From NCBI GenBank assembly GCA_015520605.1, contig WAPT01000002.1, forward strand, positions 1 to 32,124: a stretch of DNA of 32,124 bases. The letters run 5' to 3'. A program made the position numbers and the translations under genes. Positions 21,185 through 28,866 of this stretch are shown here, piece by piece (position 1 is the first letter of the stretch; each line of letters starts with the position of its first letter). The stretch is from Nanobdellati archaeon (GTDB taxonomy: Archaea; EX4484-52; WAPT01). The notes below the pieces were generated by a model. That model was not told where the DNA came from, searched no databases, and saw nothing but the letters and a program-made list of their open reading frames with translations.

Positions 21185-21342
21185 GGGCCGGTGGTCTAGC
21201 CTGGAAGGACGTCGCCTTGGCACCGCACAGCCATAAGCTGGCTGCGCGCTAGAGTGGCGGAGGCCCCGGGTTCAAATGCCCGGAGTAAACTCATTTTGTA
21301 TTTTCGGCTGCTCCGTGGCTGAGAATCCCGGCCGGTCCACCA
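21185..21342 (+). tRNA. tRNA-Ala (anticodon GGC) with two introns, encoded CCA
   Basis: Acceptor GGGCCGG pairs with CCGGTCC and contains the G3-U70 alanine identity pair. The anticodon stem TCGCC/GGCGG holds TTGGCA then T, so the anticodon is GGC. Intron 1 (21223-21254, 32 nt, position 37/38) forms a bulge-helix-bulge: central pairs TTGG/CTAG, bulges CAC and AGT, inner stem through CAGCC/GGCTG. Intron 2 (21277-21325, 49 nt, position 59/60) splits the T-loop: T stem CCGGG/CCCGG, central pairs TTCA/TGAG, bulges AAT and AAT, inner stem GCC/GGC continuing CGGAG/CTCCG. Discriminator A, then CCA at 21340-21342. Splicing by the archaeal tRNA endonuclease is expected. Confidence 0.93.
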
Positions 21343-24566: not shown

Positions 24567-24863
24567 ATGGCCGGAAAGAAGAGGTACTTTGTTCTGTTGG
24601 ATGAAAACGGGAATGAAATAGGAGTCTTTACCGGAAGACAGCCAAGACAGGCAGCCCTGAAGGCAGCAACAAGAGGTTACACAACCATAAGGCTCAGGGA
24701 GAGGGGAACCAACAAGATCCATATCTACGAAGGAAGCAGGAAGAAGGTACCTGCCCCGCCAAATGCGCCTTCCTGGATGGGAAGCGAGGTGTGGAAGCCT
24801 GTTGTAAGGAAGATAGGAATCGAAAGGATAGAGAAGAAGGGCGCAAAGAAAAAGAAGAAATAA
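24567..24863 (+). CDS. MC1-family chromosomal protein (architectural DNA-binding protein)
   Basis: 98 residues. It carries RYFVLLDENGNEIGVFTGRQPRQAALKAATRG, IRLRERGTNKIHIYEGSRK and the end APPNAPSWMGSEVWKPVVRKIG, matching methanogen chromosomal protein MC1 nearly throughout. MC1 is a monomer that bends DNA sharply and acts as a non-histone chromatin protein. It is known from Methanosarcina, haloarchaea and a few other lineages, which narrows the host. The tail IEKKGAKKKKK is more basic than usual. The last codons form the left arm of a 20-bp inverted repeat. Confidence 0.95.
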   Translation: MAGKKRYFVLLDENGNEIGVFTGRQPRQAALKAATRGYTTIRLRERGTNKIHIYEGSRKKVPAPPNAPSWMGSEVWKPVVRKIGIERIEKKGAKKKKK

Positions 24864-28753: not shown

Positions 28754-28866
28754 TGGCGCCGCGGGCCGGATTTTCAGCAGGGTAAGGATTTCTGCATTTG
28801 AACCGGCGTGCCCTTGCGGGCAGTGGCTCTCGAGGCCACCGCACTACCAGGCTATGCGACCGCGGC
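28754..28866 (-). tRNA. tRNA-Ser (anticodon CGA) with T-loop intron, encoded CCA
   Basis: Acceptor GCCGCGG pairs with CCGCGGC. Anticodon stem GTGGC/GCCAC encloses CTCGAGA, anticodon CGA. A long variable arm TGCCC-GCAA-GGGCA is typical of tRNA-Ser. The T loop TTCAAAT is split by a 26-nt intron (28771-28796). The fold is a regular bulge-helix-bulge: outer GCCGG/CCGGC, central TTCA/TGAA, inner GCAG/CTGC, with 3-nt bulges AAT on both strands. Cutting after the second bulge base places the intron at 59/60. Discriminator G, then genomic CCA at 28754-28756. Confidence 0.93.

Follow-up and report, generated by a model that had tools for sequence, protein, structure and literature searches.

The essential tRNA-Ala(GGC) gene of a tiny, uncultured DPANN archaeon is interrupted at two places, and the second interruption, 49 nucleotides (nt) within the T loop, raises the questions of whether it is an intron and how it came to this site. 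The gene lies in the window analysed here, a stretch of 32,124 nt. The order of the host includes ex4484_52, and its relatives carry labels such as DPANN, Nanohaloarchaea/Nanohalarchaeota and Aenigmatarchaeota. The analysis led us to conclude with considerable confidence that the insertion, in what is the sole tRNA-Ala(GGC) gene found, is a bulge-helix-bulge (BHB) intron at position 59/60, that it arrived recently, and that it is a probable member of an intron family, family A, which appears to be spreading among T loops.

Results

Two introns in the tRNA-Ala(GGC) gene

With both introns taken out, the gene gives a complete cloverleaf with the G3-U70 pair (Table 1). Reading of the sequence showed a D arm and full pairing of the anticodon stem (5/5) and the T stem (CCGGG/CCCGG, 5/5). 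A sequence-only reading of the window had placed introns at 37/38 and 59/60 and had claimed that removal of 49 nt restores the T arm and that the removed segment folds as a BHB. These claims hold. The BHB is complete as it was described, with a central helix of 4 bp (TTCA/TGAG), bulges AAT/AAT and inner pairs GCC/GGC. The orthologous gene in the sister genome G002 is the same gene without the T-loop insertion, which is strong comparative evidence that the insertion is an intron. The 37/38 intron is also kept in G002, with compensating changes. Judged from its sequence, the T-loop intron is probably spliced in the cell.

The gene was reported neither by ARAGORN nor by Rfam nor by a genome-wide RF00005 search. 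A second complete tRNA-Ala(GGC) gene, which the sequence-only reading had named as possible counter-evidence, was sought with a custom scan that covered all 863 kb of the assembly (90.7% complete), and none was found.

The competing false T arm predicted from the sequence exists on paper, formed by the 5' strand of the T stem and a CCCGG within the intron. With the acceptor stem fixed, RNAfold slightly favours the false T arm (-71.7 kcal/mol) over the BHB-compatible folds (-69.2 to -70.5 kcal/mol), an advantage of 1-3 kcal/mol that lies inside the error of the model. The false T arm is peculiar to the tRNA-Ala(GGC) gene.

Table 1. Positions of the tRNA-Ala(GGC) gene parts and of related features (window coordinates unless a contig is named)
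Feature	Position	Strand	Remarks
tRNA-Ala(GGC) gene, encoded CCA included, two introns	21185-21342	+	acceptor, D arm, anticodon stem, T stem; G002 ortholog
Acceptor strands GGGCCGG / CCGGTCC	21185-21191 / 21332-21338		7/7 pairs, G3-U70 present; sequence reading
Anticodon GGC	21219-21221	+	sequence reading
Canonical 37/38 intron, 32 nt	21223-21254	+	full BHB (TTGG/CTAG; bulges CAC/AGT); sequence reading
T stem 5' strand CCGGG	21266-21270	+	sequence reading
T-loop 5' exon TTCAAA	21271-21276	+	positions 54-59; TTCA contributes the 5' side of the BHB central helix
T-loop (59/60) intron, 49 nt	21277-21325	+	full BHB; probable family A member
CCCGG in T-loop intron	21279-21283	+	can pair with 21266-21270 instead, giving the false T arm with an 8-nt loop
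TGAG in T-loop intron	21320-21323	+	forms the 3' side of the BHB central helix
U60 and T stem 3' strand CCCGG	21326-21331	+	U60 at 21326; CCCGG at 21327-21331
Discriminator A; CCA	21339; 21340-21342	+	sequence reading
tRNA-Ser(CGA), 26-nt T-loop intron	28757-28866 (intron 28796-28771)	-	conserved in G002
EndA gene	G000:C15, L031 1213-1803		about 195 aa

T-loop introns across the genus

Nine tRNA genes of the window's assembly have a T-loop intron (Ala-GGC, Ser-CGA, Ser-GGA, Ser-GCT, Arg-GCG, Leu-TAA, Leu-CAG, Ile-TAT and Pro-TGG). The tRNA-Ser(CGA) gene also lies in the window; it is missed by ARAGORN, and its Rfam score is below the cut-off. The sequence-only reading had overlooked this second T-loop intron of the window, as it had the probable membership of the tRNA-Ala(GGC) intron in a dispersed family. 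The three sister genomes together have 49 T-loop introns, with 9 in the window's assembly, 10 in G002 and 30 in G001, where about 30 of about 43 archaeal tRNA genes are interrupted in this way. The matches at C3:59071-59177 in G001 and C29:7066-7104 in G002 lie outside recognisable tRNAs and were dropped.

Full 4-bp pairing with the TTCR strand was found in 41 of the 49 introns, compared with 2.9% for random 4-mers. Across 35 aligned introns, tRNA position 57 changes in concert with the intron base that it faces (A-U 17, G-C 8, G-U 8), and 94.5% of the alignment cells pair, compared with at most 56% in slid controls. The number of full helices and the covariation at position 57 indicate that the BHBs of the T-loop introns are selected. 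A few of the host introns are incomplete BHBs.

Similar introns in different tRNAs

Comparisons of introns among different tRNAs showed 62 of 1,054 pairs at z>5, and none in the shuffled control. Identities of 74-100% are seen over the core, with the helix strand excluded, between introns from different tRNAs. The introns of Ala-CGC and Val-GAC are 92% identical, those of Cys and Gly-CCC 86%, and those of Glu-TTC and Gly-TCC 81%. The tRNA-Leu(CAA) (G001:C3:113156-113219) and tRNA-Leu(CAG) (G001:C5:31276-31339) genes have identical T-loop introns of 47 nt, which could reflect very recent copying or gene duplication. Gene duplication cannot easily account for the other similar pairs. In the genus, mainly in G001, similar introns thus occur within one genome in tRNAs that are phylogenetically different.

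The tRNA-Ala(GGC) intron of the window is 74% identical to the Pro-TGG intron of G001 (z 7.2). In a search with a leave-own-out profile from G001 alone, it was the top match of its assembly, with an E value of 5.5e-5 for the whole intron. When the 3' helix strand and the bulge are left out, the E value is 0.035, and a match of similar score is found inside a coding frame. The intron probably belongs to family A, and membership is probable rather than certain because of the weaker E value after trimming. No copies of family A outside T loops were found at E<0.4 in all the sequence searched. The next match in the window's own assembly, considered as a possible non-tRNA copy, was rejected because it sits within a coding frame.

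Empty and occupied sites in related genomes

The tRNA-Ala(GGC) locus of G002 is orthologous to that of the window (682 of 750 ungapped columns identical, 91%), and the synteny covers the upstream gene and the downstream pyrimidine-synthesis gene. In the G002 gene the T-loop intron is absent and TTCAAATCCCGG is unbroken, which represents the empty site. The G001 gene has a T-loop intron that belongs to a different family. The situation is reversed in tRNA-Glu(CTC), where a family A intron is present in G002 and absent from the window's genome. Many T-loop introns of G001 are located in genes that have none in both sister genomes. In the distant G018, from another family of the order, the T loop of tRNA-Ala(GGC) is uninterrupted, which favours gain over loss. 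These comparisons, in which the genus is represented by three genomes, suggest that the 49-nt intron is a recent arrival, with gain more probable than loss in G002.

A different history, which we consider improbable, is that of an ordinary old BHB intron that was ancestral in the genus, never moved and was lost in G002, the similarity between introns being due to folding constraints. Such constraints exist, as the BHB forces a shared 3' end and helix, and T-loop introns occur order-wide and in low numbers in other archaea. However, the high identity between introns of different tRNAs is found outside the helix strand, and the G001 tRNA-Ala(GGC) site holds an intron of another family. The many G001 introns at genes that are intron-free in both sisters and the uninterrupted T loop of G018 also argue against it.

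Very little credence can be given to a random insertion that turned the gene into a non-functional pseudogene. The gene is indeed missed by annotation tools, but its exon positions are all intact, a full BHB lies exactly at the site, it is the sole Ala-GGC gene found, and an insert of this type recurs in eight further tRNA genes. Misassembly or a chimeric joint at the T arm might be suspected in a draft of 27 contigs that is apparently a metagenome-assembled genome (MAG); it is most unlikely, as the insert conforms to a functional motif and similar inserts are present in relatives assembled independently by other studies. The joint is likewise at 59/60 in the permuted tRNAs of Thermofilum pendens and Cyanidioschyzon, including the permuted Thermofilum halves (PMC3218864), so that the T-loop junction could be read as left over from gene permutation or splitting. 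However, the parts of the gene follow one another in the usual order over 158 bases, and the gene of the sister genome is in one piece, which renders a permuted origin scarcely credible.

Distribution in the order and in other archaea

A covariance model of the T arm and its intron (R1) was built from sequences of the genus, and its counts are therefore biased towards the genus. R1 matched window 21266-21331 with an E value of 9.5e-10, this intron being part of the training set. Matches of intron length occur in five of the order's seven families, usually with a few in each genome, and in families f2 and f5 R1 finds intron-free T arms only. With strict filters, 52 of 393 archaeal genomes have an R1 match, those outside the order being raw model matches. 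A full re-search outside the order gave a maximum of 14 R1 matches, also raw model matches, compared with 30 in G001. The repeated 31-nt matches in G357, a genome outside the order, may be non-tRNA. The open-licence literature yielded no paper that treats T-loop introns of this order, which is weak evidence that none exists. The statement in the sequence-only reading that T-loop introns are uncommon beyond the Crenarchaeota agrees with the literature up to 2011 (PMC3218864) but not with this DPANN order, in which they are common.

Splicing enzymes

All three genomes of the genus have one gene each for EndA and RtcB. Searches of the three genomes with PF01974 and PF02778 found no second EndA subunit. 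EndA has about 195 aa and one match per genome of the genus, in keeping with the single gene of about 180-200 aa of the alpha4 type, and gene content predicts an alpha4 enzyme in the host. Its predicted fold matches Methanocaldococcus jannaschii alpha4 EndA (1A79; TM 0.78/0.88), and the two enzymes share length, a single gene and the conserved Tyr and His. However, the Tyr-His-Lys triad is incomplete in the host enzyme, in which Tyr124 and His141 are present and the Lys position is Ala172. The catalytic Lys (K156 of M. jannaschii, in the SVRK motif) is replaced by Ala, Ser or Thr throughout the order and in the examined Nanohaloarchaea and Aenigmatarchaeota. In the same groups Tyr and His are retained, and the loop between them is lengthened, with a nearly invariant GxK; relative to 1A79 the insertion in the host has seven residues. 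Our guess is that the catalytic lysine has been relocated.

The loop at the CSL/ASL site of EndA, GKWIEEEKVKFL, has 10 residues and is intermediate in length between those of M. jannaschii (6) and A. pernix (16); the place of the Lys is non-conserved. This loop was considered as a determinant of T-loop introns and rejected, because families f2 and f5 have the loop together with T arms that are only intron-free in the R1 search. The alpha4 type has been characterised as having a narrow substrate range (PMC6379350). This agrees with the full BHBs of the host but is at odds with its few relaxed introns.

Discussion

For a recently gained T-loop intron of a spreading family, splicing can be outlined from the motif and the enzymes present. 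In the pre-tRNA, T-loop bases 54-57 (UUCA) would pair with UGAG of the intron and form the central helix. The single-gene EndA would then cleave both bulges and RtcB would ligate the exons, allowing the mature T loop to fold. An intron ending in YGAR-AA would form a valid BHB with TTCR in almost any tRNA T loop, the U opposite position 57 pairing with either A or G. Spread among T loops may be possible because the TTCR strand is nearly the same in every tRNA and supplies half of the splice motif. One intron could thus spread without adaptation and be spliceable at any T-loop landing site. Copying might proceed through RNA-level reverse splicing or insertion with reverse transcription, through recombination, or through gene conversion between the short shared T arms. 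A more specific version, which we regard as tentative and rather unlikely, is that of a mobile RNA element that targets the invariant T loop by reverse splicing or RNA recombination via EndA and RtcB, followed by DNA copying, with an EndA that tolerates such introns and whose lysine is relocated or replaced.

Earlier descriptions of BHB introns in the T arm, 59/60 joints and intron transposition come mainly from Thermoproteales and Caldiarchaeum (PMC8450103, PMC4033280, PMC4090602, PMC3218864, PMC3293823). The noncanonical archaeal introns of Marck and Grosjean (2003) and Sugahara (2008), as cited in PMC4033280 and PMC8450103, resemble those described here in the BHB at the joint, as substrates of EndA, in their T-arm positions and in the presence of multiple introns per tRNA. 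However, almost all noncanonical introns of the three sister DPANN genomes are at 59/60. The transposed tRNA introns of the Thermoproteales type are likewise similar in unrelated tRNAs, suggesting spread between genes. In contrast to these, the introns described here belong to another archaeal branch, are confined to the T loop and have an empty-site ortholog between near sisters, and the host has one EndA gene instead of the (alpha-beta)2 pair of Crenarchaeota. The tRNA-Thr heterogeneity in Caldiarchaeum (PMC3293823) is a similar case of intron presence and absence among very close relatives; an integrated mobile element and gene splitting were proposed there, whereas the insertion here is a bare 49-nt intron. 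To our knowledge, the DPANN lineage, the strong bias for a single site, the empty site in a sister genome and the single-gene EndA without the canonical lysine are new.

The origin of tRNA introns is an open question. The genus offers a natural setting in which to study how archaea gain introns, because one tRNA gene is found with an empty, an occupied and a differently occupied site and near-identical introns are present across tRNAs. Of all tRNA regions, only the T loop presents the same half-motif for splicing in every tRNA, suggesting an explanation for the favoured site. General tRNA models would miss or truncate about two thirds of the tRNA genes of one genome, so that both the number of tRNAs and the completeness of such genomes could be underestimated. 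A lysine-less single-gene EndA amid abundant noncanonical introns poses a direct biochemical question.

Other observations in the genus

The tRNA-Arg(TCG) gene (G000:C22:7489-7368) has a D-loop intron of ~45 nt that is kept with changes in the three sister genomes, and in G001 this gene has a T-loop intron in addition. Four tightly packed bacterial-style tRNAs (Thr, Tyr, Gly and Thr) at G001:C11:168-495 probably represent a contaminant contig of the G001 MAG. The window also contains the gene of an MC1-like chromatin protein (24567-24860), consistent with the earlier mention of MC1 in this host.
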